64,000 nucleotides of DNA, taken from positions 1 through 64,000 of the forward strand of contig JAFQYO010000019.1 of assembly GCA_017406405.1 (NCBI GenBank), written 5' to 3'. Of the stretch, positions 19,937-38,579 are shown piece by piece. The notes under the pieces were generated by a model, which saw only the letters and a list, made by a program, of their open reading frames with translations, was not told the DNA's origin and did no database searches. The stretch comes from Candidatus Saccharimonadota bacterium (lineage in GTDB: Bacteria > Patescibacteriota > Saccharimonadia > Saccharimonadales > Saccharimonadaceae). Both the position numbers and the translations under genes were made by a program. Position 1 is the first letter of the stretch; every line of letters begins with the position of its first letter.

Positions 19937-21271
<1,335 letters not shown>

Positions 21272-21285
21272 TAATCTTAACATCC

Positions 21286-21492
21286 CCGCAAACCCGTACC
21301 CGCGAGTGCTGTAGTACTGAGGGTTTAAGTACGACGAGAGGAAGCGCAGGTTGTCGGAGTACGTAGTATTGTTAGAACGAAGCGACCAATAGTAGCCGAG
21401 CGAACCTCTGCTGCTGAGCTCCGTAGAGCTCCAGTAGTAGCCGCCACTTCTCACATACGATAATGGAGCGCTAAGAAGGCCGTAGTCGCGGG
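21286..21492 (-). repeat. Cassette C1: start-less FISUMP-like C-terminal variable domain
   Basis: On the minus strand it opens with the shared block encoding RDYGLLSAPLSYVRSG, then GYYWSSTELSSRGSLGYYW and a variable stretch to RGYGFA. Similarity breaks off within GFAV, at the obgE end. There is no start codon or ribosome site; it follows C2 in the same frame. Variable codons are almost all NNC (GGC, AGC, CTC, GAC, CGC, TAC). Confidence 0.8.
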
Positions 21493-21720
21493 TGGAGAGA
21501 GGCGATACGCAACGCATCGCAAGACCGTAACCGTGATTATTAACACTTATAGGGTTTAGATAATTTGATCGATGAGTTTGATTCCAAGATGACGTATCGG
21601 ATCGAGAGGCACGCGACCAATAGTAGCCATCGGTGCCTCTATTGTTAAGCGAAGAAGCCCAGTAGTAATCTCCACTTCTCACATACAATAATGGAGCGCT
21701 AAGAAGGCCGTAGTCGCGGG
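21493..21720 (-). repeat. Cassette C2: same 5' block, diverged interior
   Basis: It has the same opening block as its neighbours (two or so base differences), then a distinct interior reading DYYWASSLNNRGTDGYYW, and an end HGYGLAMRCVSPLST that runs straight into C1. The interior uses T- and A-ending codons (GAT, AAT, CGA, CAA, CAT) instead of the NNC set of C1, C3 and C4. It has no start codon of its own. Confidence 0.75.
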
Positions 21721-21943
21721 AGGTTCTTGTGTCGCACCGCAAACCCGTTTCCGCGATAGTTGTAGTACTGAGGGCCCAAGCTTGATGAGTTGAAGTTCAG
21801 GTAGCTGGAGTACGTAGTATTGTAGGAACGAAGCGACCAATAGTAGCCGTTCGAACCTCTGTAGTTAAGCCCTGTAGAACCCCAGTCATAGTAGCCACTT
21901 CTCACATACGATAACGGGGCGCTGAGAAGGCCGTAGTCGCGGG
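21721..21943 (-). repeat. Cassette C3: start-less FISUMP-like C-terminal variable domain
   Basis: It opens with the block RDYGLLSAPLSYVRSG and continues YYDWGSTGLNYRGSNGYYW, SLRSYNTTYSSYLNFNSSS and RGNGFAVRHKN. It is out of frame with C2 downstream. No start codon or ribosome site precedes it; a transcription terminator lies just upstream. Its interior aligns codon for codon with C1 and C4. Confidence 0.8.
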
Positions 21944-21953
21944 AAAGAAGAAA

Positions 21954-21978
21954 CCGCCTCTTTCTAGAAAAGAGGCGG
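21954..21978 (-). terminator. Terminator of the small minus-strand unit
   Basis: Stem CCGCCTCTTT with AAAGAGGCGG around a short loop; on the minus strand it is followed by TTTCTTCTTT. It separates the small transcription unit (22213-22028) from cassette C3, so the cassettes are probably not transcribed from it. Confidence 0.75.
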
Positions 21979-22005
21979 ATATCCAGTCGGGTTTATAACT
22001 CATGG

Positions 22006-22034
22006 TTGACTTTTAGTCTGCTTTACGTTAATAT
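22006..22034 (+). promoter_or_regulatory. Promoter opposing the small minus-strand unit
   Basis: TTGACT, a 17-nt spacer and TAATAT form a near-consensus sigma70-type promoter. The RNA would start near 22041 and begins with a hairpin (22048-22061 pairing with 22075-22086). It is antisense to the small ORF on the other strand. Confidence 0.5.
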
Positions 22035-22135
22035 AAGTGTGGAATTATTGAAATTATCGCCTTCGTCTTATGAGGGCGATTTTCAAATTTAACGCTAGAC
22101 GTAACCGCCCCAGACGAATTTGAATTTTCATCCAA
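22028..22135 (-). CDS. Small ORF (35 aa from TTG, or 25 aa from ATG in another frame)
   Basis: A strong AGGAGG (22142-22147) sits 6 nt before a TTG that opens a 35-codon frame (MDENSNSSGAVTSSVKFENR and 15 more residues). It also sits 10 nt before an ATG (22131) opening a 25-codon, very basic frame (MKIQIRLGRLRLALNLKIAL then IRRRR). No homology is recognised. The ribosome site, upstream promoter and downstream terminator suggest that one of them is translated. Confidence 0.4.
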   Translation of the reverse strand: MDENSNSSGAVTSSVKFENRPHKTKAIISIIPHLY

Positions 22136-22207
22136 TTGTATTCCTCCTTCTACCGACCAGATTATTAGTCTACTAACCCTTTCTTTAGCCGTGAGTTATC
22201 TGGACTG

Positions 22208-22219
22208 ATTTTAACATAA
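22208..22219 (-). promoter_or_regulatory. Extended -10 promoter of the small minus-strand unit
   Basis: TTATGtTAAAAT on the minus strand matches the window's extended -10 consensus. Unlike the leaderless genes it is followed by a leader of about 65 nt that can fold (CCAGAT with ATCTGG, and TTAGT with ACTAA inside) before AGGAGG. Confidence 0.5.
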
Positions 22220-22220
22220 G

Positions 22221-22447
22221 TTATTTCGATAAACAACGCACCGCAAACCCGAATCCGCGACTGGTGCTGCCCCGAGGGTTTAAGCTCGATGAGCTGAAGT
22301 ACAGGCTGTTGGAGGCCGTGGTACTGTTGGAACGAAGCGACCAATAGTTGCCGCCCGAACCTCTGTCGTTAAGCCCCGTAGAGGCCCAGTAGTAGTAACC
22401 ACTCCTCACATACGATAATGGAGCGCTAAGGAGGCCGTAGTCGCGGG
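22221..22447 (-). repeat. Cassette C4: FISUMP-like C-terminal variable domain with its own stop
   Basis: It opens with the same block (RDYGLLSAPLSYVRSG), continues YYYWASTGLNDRGSGGNYW, SLRSNSTTASNSLYFSSSS and RGFGFAVRCLSK, and ends at TAA. It has no ribosome site; the only initiators in frame are internal. It is the copy whose C-terminus looks natural. It is separated from C3 by the small transcription unit. Confidence 0.8.
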
Positions 22448-22709: not shown

Positions 22710-24716
22710 ATGAAATTTCAACTCGTCTCGAAGTATAAACCAACCGGAGACCAACCCGCCGCAATCGCCCAACTCACAAAGGGCTTAAAAGAGGGAATCA
22801 AGGAACAAACTCTTCTTGGGGTGACCGGCTCTGGAAAAACCTTCACTATGGCGAACTTGATTCAAAATTTTGGAAAACCAACCCTTGTCTTGGCTCACAA
22901 TAAAACCCTCGCCGCCCAGCTTTATTCCGAATTTCGCGAATTTTTCCCGAAAAACGAAGTTCACTATTTTGTTTCATATTTTGATTATTACCAGCCTGAG
23001 GCTTATATTGCTTCGACCGACACATATATCGAAAAAGACTCCGCGATAAACGAAGAAATCGACCGCTTAAGACACGGCGCGACCGAAGCCCTCCTTACGA
23101 GAGATGATGTTATTATTATCGCCTCGGTTTCGTGTATTTATGGTATCGGCTCTCCTGAAAATTACCAAGAAATGTCTTACCCGCTCTGGAAACATCCGAC
23201 CGGTTGGGTGACGACGAACGAAACACCCGTCCCGGACCAACTCTCGTTTATTCGCTCTCTTGTCTCTATGCAATACCACCGCAACGACCTCGCCTTTGAA
23301 CGCGGCAATTTTCGAGTTATGGGCGACACTGTCGATCTTTTTCCTGCTTCAGGCGAATGGGCGTATCGGTTTGAATTTGGCTTCGATAACCTCGAAGCAA
23401 TAAAAATCATCGACCCTCTAACTGGTGAAGTGCGTGAGAAACCAGACCACATTCATATCTTCCCAAACACCCACTATGCCACTCCCGAATCCGACCTACT
23501 CCGCGCCCTCAGCTTAATCAAAAAAGAATATAAAGAACGTCTCGCATTTTTTGAGCGACATGGAAAATACCTTGAGGCACAACGCTTGACACAAAGAATA
23601 AAATATGATTTAGAAATGCTGAAAGAAACTGGCTTTGTGAAGGGAATCGAAAACTATTCTCGTCATCTCGAAGGAAGAAAAGCGGGCGAGCCCCCTTCGA
23701 CTCTCCTTGACTTTTTCCCGAAAGATTTTCTATTATTGGTTGACGAGTCTCACATGACTCTCCCTCAAGTTCGCGGTATGTATAATGGCGACCATGCCCG
23801 AAAACTGAACCTTGTCGACTATGGATTCCGCCTTCCTTCCGCGCTCGACAATCGTCCTCTCACTTTCTCTGAGTTTTATCGCCATATTTCTCACGCTATC
23901 TACGTCTCTGCGACCCCTGGCGAATACGAGCTCTCAAATTGCCCGAAACCCGCCGAACAAGTCATTCGTCCGACTGGACTTCTCGACCCGAAAGTCGAAG
24001 TCCGTCCTTCCGAACACCAAATCGACGACCTGATGGAAGAAATTGACCGTCGTATCGCAAAAGGCCAGAGAACTCTCGTCACGACTCTCACAAAGCGCAT
24101 GGCGGAAGATTTGACCGACCATCTGAAAGAACGCGGAATAAAAACCGCCTATATTCATTCCGATATTGACACTCTCGAGCGTGGCGATATTTTACGCGAC
24201 CTCCGGGCGGGCGTGTATGACGTTTTAGTCGGAATAAACCTGCTCCGTGAAGGTCTTGACCTTCCCGAAGTGTCGCTTGTTGCAATTATCGACGCCGACA
24301 AAGAAGGATTTTTGCGTTCCGAATCAGCTTTAATCCAAACAATCGGCCGAGCTGCTCGTCACGTCGAAGGCTCGGTGATTATGTACGCCGATATGATTAC
24401 CGAAAGCATGGAAAAAGCCATTTCAGAAACCAGCCGTCGTCGCGAAATCCAAGAGAAATACAATCTCGACCACGGCATTGTTCCGAAGTCGGTCAGCAAA
24501 GAGATTTCAGCCGGCCTTCGCGCAATCATCCCCGAAAAAGAAACCGAATCAAAACTCGACATTAAAAGAATCCCGAAAGAAGAACTCCCTGCTCTCGTCA
24601 AAGAACTTACCGCTCAAATGCAACTCGCCGCCGCGAATCTCGAATTCGAGCGCGCCGCGCTTTTACGTGACCAAATATCCGAAATAGAGTCAAAAAATCC
24701 CACTAAAAAGTCTTAA
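22710..24716 (+). CDS. uvrB: Excinuclease ABC subunit B
   Basis: The 668-residue DNA-damage-verification helicase of nucleotide excision repair works with UvrA and UvrC, which are not in the window. Walker A is [13 protein letters not shown] (about residue 38). The beta-hairpin region ([18 protein letters not shown]) and the DESH-type helicase motif ([13 protein letters not shown]) are present. Motifs V/VI are [15 protein letters not shown] and [11 protein letters not shown]-terminal UVR motif ([13 protein letters not shown]) binds UvrC. Length is normal for the family. Confidence 0.98.
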
Positions 24717-33169: not shown

Positions 33170-35827
33170 ATGTCTGACGAAGTCCGCGAAGCTAGAAAAA
33201 GGGAAGAAAGCTTTGTTTCTCATGTTGAAGGACTTCCAAAATCCGCTTCAAGAAAGAAAAAATTCTCCTTTAAAAAACATTTGCCGGTTCTTGTGATTGT
33301 TGGCTTGCTCTTTCTTGGTGTTGGCTTAATTTTCATCTCTCAGTCTTTGATGCCCTTTGCGATTGTGAACCGCTTCCGCGAAGAGTTTAATACTCTCGGG
33401 ATTTCCTCGACTCTCCGCTCCGACAACATCCTCGATTATCAGCTAGAAAACCCAGCTTCCGCTCTTAGGCTTTCTGAAACTCAGCGCACGTCGCTATCCG
33501 CCTCCGAAATTTACCCGGTCGATGCCTCGCTCGATGGGATTCCGTTCACGGCGCTTGTCTTCGCGGGGTCGCGCGGAGTTTATTCTGCCGTCGTCCCAAA
33601 TTCCGTTTTAGAAAAAGCAGATTCCTCCGCTATTAACTCCGCCATAAATTCCTCAATAACGGATTCTAGAATTCTTGTCTCTGGGACTCCGCTCTCGACT
33701 TCTTCCGCGAAGTCCGTCGCTGCGTTCGAAGACAAATATTCTTCCGCCTCAAAGCTCTGGCGTGGTGGCAGTTCCGGGTGGTATGATTCTTTCACAAATT
33801 TGACCGAGGCGCGTCTTGCTATTTCCCGAAGTCGCTATGCAAACTGGGCGACGCTCGCGCTTAATTCCGGGACAAAAGAAGCCTGGAAAAAACTCGCAAG
33901 CGGAACGACGAAAATCTCCGACGACGGCATTTCTAGCTACGGGACTATTGTCGAAACAAACGACGCCGGTGAAGAAGTCGCAGTCACAACTTCCGGAGCG
34001 ATTGACTCTGACTCTCTGACGTCTCAAACGACCGTCGACGGAATCGAGCAGGCCCTAAACTCAAAAATAACAAGTTTAACAAAGGTGCTCGCGACGGCCG
34101 GTTGTGCCGGAGTAGAAATTGGAACCGCGATTTATACCGTCATGTCCGCTCAACAGTCCCTACAATACCTAAATCTGACGACGGGGTATTTTGAAGCGAC
34201 TCAATCCGTCCAAGCCGGCCTGAACGACGGAACCCCTATGAACGAATACACCGAACGACTAACAAAAAAAGACCCAGAAACCGGAAAAAGCGCTATGGAA
34301 TCTGCCGGAATGACCGCTCTCTTTTCCGGGACAAAAATCAGTTCTTCCGATGAAAGCGTAAAACACACAAATTTCGAAAACCTTATTTCTTCGCTCGGTT
34401 CGCTCTCCGGGAACGTAGTTTTCACGACCCAAGCTTTCCAGGCGTGTTCGTATGTTCGCATGGGCGTCGCCGCGACAAATTTCGCAACAACCATGATGGC
34501 CTTCGTCCCGGTTCTCGGCCAGGCCACTACCGCGATTCATATTGTCGCTAAAGTCGTCGGGAAAATTGCAATCGGCGTTGCCGTCGGAACAATTGTCTCG
34601 TTTATTGTCCCGAAAATCGTCGAAAGCGTCGCCGAAAACATTATAAAAAACACCGCGACCGAATGGCTCGGAGAAGATCTCGGAAACGCTCTCTCTTCCG
34701 GAGCAAACAAATATCTCGGTGGGAATTTCCAAACCGGCGGCGGTATGGCCGCTTCAACAGAATCTCTCGCGGCTTATTTCCGTGCTAAAGAAGCCGTCCT
34801 TGCCGAAGAAGCGGAGATTGAACGTCGAACCCTCAGCCCCTTCGACGTTACGTCGAAAAACACTTTCTTCGGAAAACTCGCCTACGACTTAATCCCTCTT
34901 GCGACGACGACAAGCCTCGGCTCGACTCTAAAATCCTTCGGCAATCTCGTGACAAAGTCCACAACGTCTATTCTCCCGTCCGCCTCCGCTATCTCCGAAA
35001 CCGAACTTATGGACTCGATTGGCGAATGTCCGATTCTTGAATCTATCGGTCTCGTCGGCGACGCTTATTGTAACCCTTATTATATTACCGACACTTCCAC
35101 AATCTCCGCCTCGCCCGCCGAAATTGAAGAAAAAGTTGCCTCCCTCGACCCGTCAAACTTCTCGGGCGTCGATAAAAACGGCCAAAAAATCATCAACCCG
35201 GATTCAACCCTCGGAAAAAAGATTACAATTTGCGACCAACGCGTTGCGAGCCTCGGCATGGCAGATGCAACCGCCGCGAACATCCTTGTCTCGAGGCCTT
35301 CGACTCTTGTCGCAAACTTACCGCTTATAGGCGATGTTGCTGAAATTGTCTCCGCTTCTCAACAAGCCGCGAACATGCCATGGATTTCTGGCCAAGCTTG
35401 CGCAGATTCTCCCGAAAACCCTTATCGCGAAGAAATGCAAATCTACCAGCGTTACATCGAAGACCAACGTCTCTACGAATCCGCCGGGATTGTTGAAGAA
35501 TCTTCCGTTACGGCTTTCCTAAAAAACTACTACGGCGAAAACCCCCTCGACAACTCTTATGAAGGAATTTTAGCTCGATATTCCGGAATGGAAAAGTCCG
35601 AGGTTATCGCGGCTCTTGACTACATAGACGCTCTGACCTTCTTAGCAAATTATGACCCCTCTGAACGGAAAATTTTGAGCGCGGACGAAACCTCCGAAAA
35701 TACACCAATTTCTCTCTCGAATTTTATATCCACTTATGCTAAAATAAAAGACGATGGACAACAGTTCGGACTATTTGAGAAACGCCGAGACTTCTTCGTC
35801 AGGCGAAACGCCGAATTCGCCGTTTGA
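33170..35827 (+). CDS. Giant membrane/exported protein, paralogue 1 of a tandem pair
   Basis: The 885-residue protein has a basic cytoplasmic tail (1-40), a signal anchor (about 41-63: VLVIVGLLFLGVGLIFISQ) and a long extracytoplasmic part. Ser/Thr/Ala-rich segments surround a hydrophobic Gly/Ala/Val region (about 420-495: MMAFVPVLGQATTAI, VVGKIAIGVAVGTIVSFIV). It closes with a Cys-containing, helix-rich domain. Motifs shared with the next gene include FNTLGISSTLRSDNILD, WRGGSSGWYDS, EWLGEDLGNAL and IPLATTTSLGSTLKSFGNLV. No family is known to me. The hydrophobic stretch could insert into a membrane, so a secretion component or a surface or pore protein are options. Confidence 0.7.
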   Translation: MSDEVREARKREESFVSHVEGLPKSASRKKKFSFKKHLPVLVIVGLLFLGVGLIFISQSLMPFAIVNRFREEFNTLGISSTLRSDNILDYQLENPASALRLSETQRTSLSASEIYPVDASLDGIPFTALVFAGSRGVYSAVVPNSVLEKADSSAINSAINSSITDSRILVSGTPLSTSSAKSVAAFEDKYSSASKLWRGGSSGWYDSFTNLTEARLAISRSRYANWATLALNSGTKEAWKKLASGTTKISDDGISSYGTIVETNDAGEEVAVTTSGAIDSDSLTSQTTVDGIEQALNSKITSLTKVLATAGCAGVEIGTAIYTVMSAQQSLQYLNLTTGYFEATQSVQAGLNDGTPMNEYTERLTKKDPETGKSAMESAGMTALFSGTKISSSDESVKHTNFENLISSLGSLSGNVVFTTQAFQACSYVRMGVAATNFATTMMAFVPVLGQATTAIHIVAKVVGKIAIGVAVGTIVSFIVPKIVESVAENIIKNTATEWLGEDLGNALSSGANKYLGGNFQTGGGMAASTESLAAYFRAKEAVLAEEAEIERRTLSPFDVTSKNTFFGKLAYDLIPLATTTSLGSTLKSFGNLVTKSTTSILPSASAISETELMDSIGECPILESIGLVGDAYCNPYYITDTSTISASPAEIEEKVASLDPSNFSGVDKNGQKIINPDSTLGKKITICDQRVASLGMADATAANILVSRPSTLVANLPLIGDVAEIVSASQQAANMPWISGQACADSPENPYREEMQIYQRYIEDQRLYESAGIVEESSVTAFLKNYYGENPLDNSYEGILARYSGMEKSEVIAALDYIDALTFLANYDPSERKILSADETSENTPISLSNFISTYAKIKDDGQQFGLFEKRRDFFVRRNAEFAV
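35735..35745 (+). promoter_or_regulatory. Extended -10 promoter inside the preceding gene, leaderless
   Basis: TATGcTAAAAT lies within the last 95 bases of paralogue 1 and ends 8 nt before the ATG at 35754. Confidence 0.55.
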
Positions 35828-38579
35828 TGGCGGAGTTGATGACGCTCGTTCCGCCGAATCTGGAGGAGAGTCTAACTTCCTAAATTCCGTCATGGGCTCT
35901 CCGCAAAAGAAAAAAACCATCTTCCGCGGAAAGCTCTCGTTAAAGAAAAACGCTCCGCTTCTTGTCATAATCCTCTTGTTATTTGTGTTCGGAGGGCTTA
36001 TGTTCGCCGCCCAGGCGATGATGCCCTTTGCGATTGTGAATCGTTTTATCGAAGAGTTTAATACCGTCGGAATTTCCTCGACTCTCCGTTCCGATAATAT
36101 CCTCGATCTTCAGCTCTCGAGCTCGAGCGACATGTTCGGCCTGACCGATTATCAGAAGTCCAGTCTCTCCGGAGAAGGAATCCTGAACGTCGAATATGGC
36201 GGCGGCACAATCCTCGCTTATAAAAATAAGAAAAAAGAATGGGTTGCCGTCGCTGGCGAAAGCCAAATTAACGCAAACGCGACTCAAATCGCCGAACTTT
36301 TCGCGAACGTTTCGGACGATTTTTCTGTCGATGCGACCGCGAGCCCTTTTATTATTTCCACGTCTGACGCACTGTCCGACATCTCCTTTAAAAATCCTTA
36401 CACGACTGCCTCGAAAACCTGGCGCGGAGGCAGTTCCGGCTGGTACGACACCCTCATGGCCATGAACGAACAAGTTCGTGACCTCGAACGGAGTCGTTTT
36501 TATTACACAGGGACCCGAGCCGCCAGCCTCGCCGTCTCGAACGGCGCGGAGCTTATGGGGTATCGCACGAGCATAAAAACCCGAGTCTATAATAAAATCA
36601 CCCACCGTCGAACCATAAACCAATACATCTACGACAAAATGTCCGGTACGAAACTCGGCGAAATGATAAAAGCAAACTCAAACATAAATTCTCCTTCCGC
36701 TCTAGAAACCGCCGGGCTTAACGCCGCCGCCTTACTCGGCAGCGTCTCCTCGGCGTTAAACGTCGGTTGCCAAGCTCTCCAACTCGTCGCAAAGGCCCAA
36801 ACCTTGATTGCTGGCTACCAAAGCATCCAACAAATGAATCTCACTTCCGGCTATCTAGAGGCCGTCCAAATGGTCCAAGATGGTTCCTCGGACGACGGTG
36901 CCGCGATGAACGAATACAACGAAAACCTACTAGAAAAAGACCCAGAGACCGGAAAAAGCGCTATGGAATCCGCCGGAATTGGTGGTCTGACTTCCGGAAG
37001 CGAGATTAGCGGTTCTGACCCGAGTGTCCAAAGCGCGAGCTCTCAGACCGCAATCGCTAATTTAGGCAGCACTCCCTCCGGCAACGCCGTCTCGCGCGCT
37101 TTGATGTCTGCCGCTGGCCAAATTAACGATATTATGGCGAAAATCACCGCCTGCAACAACCTCAGCTCGACCCTTAATATTATCTCCACCGCTATTACCG
37201 TCGGCGTTGCCGCTTTCACGGGCGGAATTGGTGCCATCGTGGAGCTTACTACCGCCTCGATTGTCTCCTCGGTTCTCGGTGCCCTAGCGGGCCCGGCCAT
37301 GACCGCCCTAGCAAATTCCGTTATCCAATGGATTTGGGAAGATTTCGGGAAAAACCTCGCCGAAAACGCCGCGACGGATTGGCTCGGCGAAGACCTCGGG
37401 AATGCCCTTGTTGCCGGAGGCGACCGATATATCGGTTCGAACGGCCTGACCGGCGGTCAAACAGTCGGTTCAAAGAGCGTTCTTCAGGCCTTTAAACGCG
37501 CCCAAGAAACCGTTATCGCCGAGGAAGCCGAATACCAGCGCTCGATTCGCTCTCCGTTTGATACGTCGTCCCAATACACCTTCCTTGGGAGCATAGTCTA
37601 TAATCTCGTTCCTCTTGCGACGACGACAAGTCTCGGTTCGACCATAAAAACCTTCGGGAATCTCGTGGCGAAGTCCGCGACCAATCTCCTTCCGACCGCC
37701 TCAGCTATCGCCGAAACAAGTTTGATTGATTCTGTCGGCGATTGCGCGAACCTTTCGACTATCGACGGAAGCGGCGACCCTTACTGCGTCGGTTACATGG
37801 TGAGTGACATCAGCACCATGAACTACACCCCCCAAGCAATCATCGACGCGGTCTATGAACTCGGCGGGATTTACGAAAAAACTCCTGACTCTTCGACCGG
37901 AACTTTCGAAATTGTCGAAAACAGTCACCTCGACAAATACATCACCTTCTGTGGTCAGCGCGCCTCCGACTGGGGCATGGCCGACGCCGGCATCTCGGAA
38001 GCAATTCAGTCCCAAAAGTCAAAACAATGGTGGCGTAAAATCCCTCTTCTCGGGAGCGCAATTGGCGCAATCGCCGACATCATGACCTCCGGGGAAAACG
38101 CCGCCTGGATTACCGGAGAAATGTGTGTCGCTCACGAACCTATATCTTCCTGTAATAAATGCGACGGCGTTACAAACAACAAAACCGAATGTTTCTGGCA
38201 AAACGAAGGAAAATACTACCAGCGTTTTATCGAGGACCAACGTCTCCTCGAGAACAACGGCGCAATCAAAAAATCTTCCGTTACGCTTGCCCTTGAAAAA
38301 CATTACGAAGAAAATCCTCTCGACAATTCCGACGAAGGAATTCTCGCTCGGTATTCTGGCCTTTCTAAAGACGACGTCATAACAACCCTTGCCTTTATCG
38401 GTGGTCTCGAATATATAGCGAGCTACGACCCTTCGACTCGCCTTGCTTTCGGAAAAGAAAACAACTCTAAAGAATTCTTCTTCGAAGATACCGAAGAAAC
38501 TTATAAAGGTGATTATCTCGCTCTCGAGCTTAAATATATCCTCTATAACGACATCAGAAATCGCGCGCAGGTGGTATAA
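35754..38579 (+). CDS. Giant membrane/exported protein, paralogue 2 of a tandem pair
   Basis: The 941-residue protein has the same plan as paralogue 1: acidic/Ser N-terminus, signal anchor (about 65-88), the FNTVGISSTLRSDNILD block, WRGGSSGWYDT, a central hydrophobic Gly/Ala region (about 470-525), DWLGEDLGNALV, VPLATTTSLGSTIKTFGNLV and a C-terminal domain ending in LDNSDEGILARYSGL. It differs by an extra Cys-rich loop (SSCNKCDGVTNNKTECFW). It overlaps the previous gene by 74 bases in another frame, yet has its own promoter. The pair arose by tandem duplication and has diverged considerably. Function unknown. Confidence 0.7.
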   Translation: MDNSSDYLRNAETSSSGETPNSPFDGGVDDARSAESGGESNFLNSVMGSPQKKKTIFRGKLSLKKNAPLLVIILLLFVFGGLMFAAQAMMPFAIVNRFIEEFNTVGISSTLRSDNILDLQLSSSSDMFGLTDYQKSSLSGEGILNVEYGGGTILAYKNKKKEWVAVAGESQINANATQIAELFANVSDDFSVDATASPFIISTSDALSDISFKNPYTTASKTWRGGSSGWYDTLMAMNEQVRDLERSRFYYTGTRAASLAVSNGAELMGYRTSIKTRVYNKITHRRTINQYIYDKMSGTKLGEMIKANSNINSPSALETAGLNAAALLGSVSSALNVGCQALQLVAKAQTLIAGYQSIQQMNLTSGYLEAVQMVQDGSSDDGAAMNEYNENLLEKDPETGKSAMESAGIGGLTSGSEISGSDPSVQSASSQTAIANLGSTPSGNAVSRALMSAAGQINDIMAKITACNNLSSTLNIISTAITVGVAAFTGGIGAIVELTTASIVSSVLGALAGPAMTALANSVIQWIWEDFGKNLAENAATDWLGEDLGNALVAGGDRYIGSNGLTGGQTVGSKSVLQAFKRAQETVIAEEAEYQRSIRSPFDTSSQYTFLGSIVYNLVPLATTTSLGSTIKTFGNLVAKSATNLLPTASAIAETSLIDSVGDCANLSTIDGSGDPYCVGYMVSDISTMNYTPQAIIDAVYELGGIYEKTPDSSTGTFEIVENSHLDKYITFCGQRASDWGMADAGISEAIQSQKSKQWWRKIPLLGSAIGAIADIMTSGENAAWITGEMCVAHEPISSCNKCDGVTNNKTECFWQNEGKYYQRFIEDQRLLENNGAIKKSSVTLALEKHYEENPLDNSDEGILARYSGLSKDDVITTLAFIGGLEYIASYDPSTRLAFGKENNSKEFFFEDTEETYKGDYLALELKYILYNDIRNRAQVV

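Follow-up and report, generated by a model that had tools for sequence, protein, structure and literature searches.

The stretch of DNA analysed here (the window) comprises positions 1 to 64,000 of contig C17 in a 697,629-bp genome of 20 contigs, which we designate G000. The genome belongs to Candidatus Saccharibacteria, a lineage that agrees with the CPR setting proposed in a preliminary description of the window. Between obgE (a GTPase gene; 19964-21271, plus strand) and uvrB (22710-24716, plus strand), both recognized from their own sequence, lie four minus-strand units that share a common opening arm starting CCCGCGACTACGGCC, at the positions given in that description, and the window holds no second family of such units. 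Cassette 1 spans 22224-22447 (5′ arm, 22413-22447; template-homologous body, 22237-22412), cassette 2 spans 21732-21943 (arm, 21909-21943; body, 21733-21908), cassette 3, an old copy with an open frame, spans 21503-21720 (arm, 21686-21720), and cassette 4 spans 21282-21492 (arm, 21458-21492; body, 21282-21457), only 11 nt separating its end from the stop codon of obgE. As first delimited, the cassette bodies covered 22224-22445, 21732-21941, 21503-21718, and 21287-21490. Cassettes 1, 2, and 4 were originally listed as units C4, C3, and C1. As first claimed, all four units lack an in-frame start and ribosome site near the 5′ end; the start-type codon that they share in the opening region is an internal one, the GTG within YVRSG. 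The IMH block is also missing from all four.

A linker, ACACAAGAACC(T/A), occupies 21721-21732 on the minus strand, and the minus-strand spacer between cassettes 1 and 2 (21944-22223) carries a terminator-like hairpin just before cassette 2, the function of which has not been shown. The same spacer also contains a ribosome-site-like AAGGAGG and a short open frame. Terminator-directed insertion of cassettes was considered and rejected, as a strong hairpin was present in only 1 of 10 upstream flanks. Elsewhere in the window, the reverse strand of the obgE interior encoding QEAVVAK (20291-20310, minus strand) reads TTCGCGACTACGGCTTCTTG, which resembles the opening of the cassettes, CCCGCGACTACGGCCTTCTT, probably by chance, and positions 33259-37764 hold paralogous tandem copies ~2.7 kb apart, with pieces 71-76% identical.

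Neither a reverse transcriptase (RT) nor a template was found in the window, as had been observed. The preliminary description predicted a DGR RT, an AAC-rich template, and full-length genes ending in the cassette domain for the rest of the genome, and a search found all three, the last as one full-length gene start: the one RT is on contig C14 and the one template on contig C4. The template repeat (TR), VFYVRSGNYNWNSTGLNNRGSNGNYWSLRSNNTTNSNNLNFNSSNLNPQNNNNRGNGFAVRCVSQ, is located at contig C4:940-1131, has AAC at nearly all variable codons, and is the sole template found in the genome. Three variable repeats (VRs) with an IMH-like 3′ block are all situated at contig ends (C4:125, C8:50, and C14:97355), and the 72 nt after the TR are identical to the region after the VR in all three. 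Compared to the TR, these VRs are changed at 55 of 168 adenines and at 0 of 360 other bases (p = 4e-31); with no non-A changes, they seem freshly written by the RT. On contig C4, the 3′ block of the VR is followed by a hairpin, GGCTAGCG-TAACTCAT-CGCTAGCC, and a hairpin of such kind also follows the VR of the BPP-1 target. A third copy of the IMH-like block on this contig (L066:680-743) lies between VR and TR with no repeat before it, and is perhaps the remnant of an earlier VR or TR. A search for known structured RNAs at the TR and array loci found just one tRNA.

The RT (contig C14:38072-39187; 372 aa) is the only RVT_1 protein of the genome (E = 1e-12). Its best PDB match is 8ub7 (E = 9e-23), which we take to be the BPP-1 phage DGR RT, its PHROGs match is the RT family phrog_1423, and its motifs (GNLSSQLLSNIYL and YGRYVDDF; GNLSSQ, YVDD) are of DGR type. 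Judged by these motifs and best matches, without a DGR-specific tree, it is a DGR-type RT. A conserved ORF of 252-281 aa stands directly before the RT in five genomes (L061:3278-4072; also L128, L130, L131, and L135), with a shared FRSGAEWxKMGGNSLLIYYF. Searches of Pfam, NCBIfam, PADLOC, PHROGs, and PDB gave nothing significant for this ORF, a candidate DGR accessory protein.

The sole gene start leading into the domain is found at contig C9:35914-38826, in a gene that encodes 971 aa or more, including a hydrophobic segment in the N-terminal part. This gene runs off its contig, with overlaps of 115 nt with contig C4 and 40 nt with contig C8; because it is split at contig ends, the present VR of the full-length gene is assigned by overlap only. 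The other two 5′ ends of that type, at the end of C8 and the start of C16, both belong to start-less long copies. The FISUMP-type domain suggested from the window is recovered by PF09603, at E = 7e-10 in a complete target gene of a relative, G031, but only at E = 0.005, short of the family cut-off, in a VR copy. The target is one large secreted-type protein, probably at the cell surface. Collectively, these data demonstrate that G000 holds one DGR, comprising RT, TR, and IMH-bearing VRs, aimed at a C-terminal FISUMP domain, with RT and TR on separate contigs. Two AlphaFold models of the target C terminus, for which a C-type-lectin-like fold had been suggested, were too poor for use (pLDDT, 30-34), and the N terminus, present in 4 of 36 genomes, was discarded as a family marker as too variable. 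A separate protein of 1119 aa, encoded at L064:1643-5002 (contig C14, ~73.6-77.0 kb), contains two FISUMP domains and List_Bact repeats; it is a distant paralogue and not part of the cassette system.

Against this TR, cassette 1, the youngest of the window array, differs at 22/56 adenines and 1/120 other bases (Fisher p = 7e-12), cassette 2 at 17/56 and 6/120 (p = 1e-5), and cassette 4 (the copy at 21287) at 23/56 and 8/120 (p = 1e-7). The DGR adenine signature initially read in these three units is therefore upheld, and the unit left out of that reading, cassette 3 (21503-21718), has indeed lost it (26/56 adenines and 43/117 other bases; p = 0.25), its 5′ arm still being 34/35 conserved despite the diverged body. 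A search of the whole genome with one unit returned 30 strong copies, the TR among them, and two distant paralogues, while the opening block by itself, used as a DNA query, matched 29 places; the near agreement of the protein and DNA counts indicates that the protein search missed no class of frameshifted copies. Only one full-length gene start occurs among the ~29 domain copies, with the others start-less, and most cassettes lack the IMH block. As their differences from the TR fall mainly at its adenines, the start-less cassettes are copies of mutagenised VRs. They range in age from nearly pure A-only change (22224) to strongly diverged, and their A sites are nearly independent beyond one codon, as expected if every cassette stems from a separate mutagenesis event.

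Several features point to exchange between the copies. The 35-nt opening arm is present in the target gene and the cassettes and absent from the TR, and hence cannot come from TR cDNA. Even where the cassette body has diverged by 20-38%, the arm retains ~96% conservation; for the seven oldest cassettes, divergence is 3.7% in the arm versus 28% in the body (p = 2e-19). Among old cassettes of a relative, G022, those of the short type show arm conservation likewise, while those of the long type do not. At 17 diagnostic sites, defined as non-A sites that differ between the TRs of G000 and G022, most cassettes compared match the TR of their own species at 15-17, including, at partly syntenic positions, those close to argS, ileS, and other neighbours that the genomes have in common; one older G022 cassette does so at 10. 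Sharing can also be segmental: C14_55113 and C14_27078 have their first 10 variable sites in common and then differ, beyond permutation, while in G022 the pair C11_851/C2_43021 shares all 43 variable sites and C8_54844/C7_25510 the 3′ half, with only a few such events reaching significance. A STELSSRGSLGYYWSLRS block is common to window cassette 4 and C14:26858, and silent arm sites only 3 nt apart show all four gametes. The linker at 21721-21732 recurs in the arrays at C14:27.1 kb and C8:51.7 kb; cassettes flanking shared linkers are no more alike at A sites than chance.

Concerted evolution, mosaics, and the four-gamete test all show that the copies exchange sequence, and RecA is present in the genome. 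Because the 5′ arm is not in the TR and the non-A sites are those of the cassettes' own species, it is well supported that the silent cassettes receive RT-diversified sequence through homologous exchange and not directly from TR cDNA. In no case was cassette sequence observed to have moved into the expressed gene; all sequence comes from single MAGs, without reads.

The cassettes also retain their reading frame. No stops were seen in G000 cassettes where 23 were expected, and 2 were seen in G022 against 70 expected, with expectations computed from the observed non-A-site changes and related changes treated as independent. Apart from one 1-nt gap in the alignment of an old cassette, all indels measure 3 or 9 nt, and there is an excess of synonymous changes. 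The expressed gene may have been where part of this constraint operated, with older cassettes sampling older TR versions. Return of cassette sequence to the expressed gene, itself not observed, would explain the conservation of frame. Taken together, the conserved 5′ arm, the own-TR sites, recombination, and the kept frame argue against passive cDNA insertions or a plain graveyard.

The domain family is widespread in the genus. The cassette profile was matched in 35 of 36 genus genomes (G000 included), in copy numbers from 2-5 per genome, as for a plain DGR, up to 28-79, and the RT was found in 38 of 60. A scan of genome contigs with the cassette profile gave no match, and one with the RT gave five loci, three of them in Saccharibacteria; the named relatives are Candidatus Saccharibacteria, including UBA1788 and a goat duodenum genome. 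VR-TR-RT order is intact in G031, and VR, TR, the candidate accessory ORF, and RT stand together in G011, where seven copies have 0-4 non-A differences of 148. Both G011 and G022 repeat the G000 pattern. When G022 was queried with the domain plus its preceding stretch, 58 matches were obtained: one (contig C4:1-123) is inside a 940-aa frame that runs off its contig, giving again one full-length gene, a weak paralogous pair on its C14 accounts for two, the TR for one, and start-less copies for the remainder (>50). About 25 of the copies lie within ~10 kb of contig C7, in mixed orientation. G030 has 79 profile matches (loci L147-L160), and the loci fetched contain two interspersed cassette types. 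No RVT_1 protein and no AAC-rich template of such kind was found in this 97% complete genome, and its DGR has either been lost or is missing from the assembly. The archive may have outlived the retroelement in lineages like this one.

We consider it likely that the window array is one of several silent DGR archives, in which VR copies are laid down by homologous exchange and gene conversion back is inferred. Silent donors, displaced targets, and relics had all been entertained at the outset; silent donors fit best, with donation not demonstrated, and relics worst, given the conserved frame and concerted evolution. It seems improbable that the cassettes are partial VR-region duplications, inserted and now drifting without function. 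Such decay would be compatible with the absence of starts and of IMH, with the strong divergence of some copies (43/117 non-A at window 21503), and with the dozens of cassettes kept in G030 although no RT or TR was found there. Against drift stand stop counts far below expectation (0 versus 23; 2 versus 70), frame-preserving indels, and synonymous excess, cassettes at shared genomic sites that track their own species' TR, and the conservation of the 5′ arm next to a diverging body.

We give somewhat less credence still to the possibility that the cassettes are themselves direct targets, into which the RT machinery would write mutagenised cDNA. The IMH block is missing from most of them, and their homogenised 5′ arm, not being part of the TR, does not derive from TR cDNA, even if the youngest are nearly pure A-only (1/120 non-A at 22224; 0/148 for two in G011) and long IMH-bearing copies do exist (C4_15358 and those at the C8 and C14 ends), for which direct RT writing may still hold. 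Contigs of this 20-contig assembly break at VR copies, as they might if a metagenome assembler had misplaced strain variants of one VR; yet cassettes lie mid-contig, with unique flanks and linkers, and are found again at the same sites in genomes that were assembled independently, making an artefact of this kind very hard to credit.

If the array is a silent archive, as we favour, the DGR would write new randomised tips of the target's C-terminal domain, and the mutagenised VRs would be copied into start-less cassettes that exchange sequence with the gene carrying the VR or with long copies of it. RecA-type gene conversion, between the conserved 5′ arm and the 3′ end, is inferred to return cassette sequence to the single expressed gene. 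Diversity would then have two tiers, random variants made by reverse transcription and a heritable stored repertoire available for segmental recall. For this complete scheme, in which the DGR invents tips and a genome-wide start-less archive stores and returns them via gene conversion as a heritable memory, we see the case as evenly balanced. The combined retroelement and gene-conversion system first envisaged for this locus accordingly stands on the side of copying into cassettes, and donation to the expressed gene remains an inference.

Parts of this arrangement are familiar. Roux et al. (2021) report a DGR clade (clade 2) restricted to Patescibacteria (PMC8144416), and our system resembles these DGRs in its RT, TR, VR with adenine-specific changes, and IMH-like 3′ block, and has a candidate accessory ORF ahead of the RT, with compact order in the sister genomes G031 and G011. 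It departs from them in having dozens of start-less, mostly IMH-less VR copies dispersed in arrays and, in G000, RT and TR on separate contigs; we found no mention of silent VR cassettes in that paper (PMC8144416). The silent cassettes of Borrelia vls are likewise partial and start-less, with frame kept and indels in threes, and serve one expression site with many silent promoter- and start-less variable-region copies and segmental exchange (PMC11499132). Unlike vls, variation here arises by RT copying of a template with adenine-only changes, the arrays are dispersed over the chromosome (in G022 with alternating orientation), and conversion into the expressed gene is not shown. In Neisseria pilE/pilS and in Mycoplasma, silent partial copies around the chromosome form a donor pool for one surface protein, without a retroelement source and with an unrelated protein. 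G000 shows features of the vls/pilS type, namely a single long gene frame with start-less copies (as in G022), a conserved arm, a kept frame, and exchange of sequence between copies.

For the union of a DGR with a stored repertoire of start-less cassettes, no description was found in the literature searched, nor any report of silent DGR cassettes; the scope of that literature excluded most subscription papers and all preprints. The usual picture of a DGR is one of its target being overwritten, with each variant erasing its predecessor. Start-less VR copies escape the pipelines that annotate DGRs and genes, and retention of DGR variants now becomes testable. The bacterium is tiny and host-dependent. 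If the archive is real, such a small epibiont could keep and recall earlier variants, uniting two systems that are known separately.
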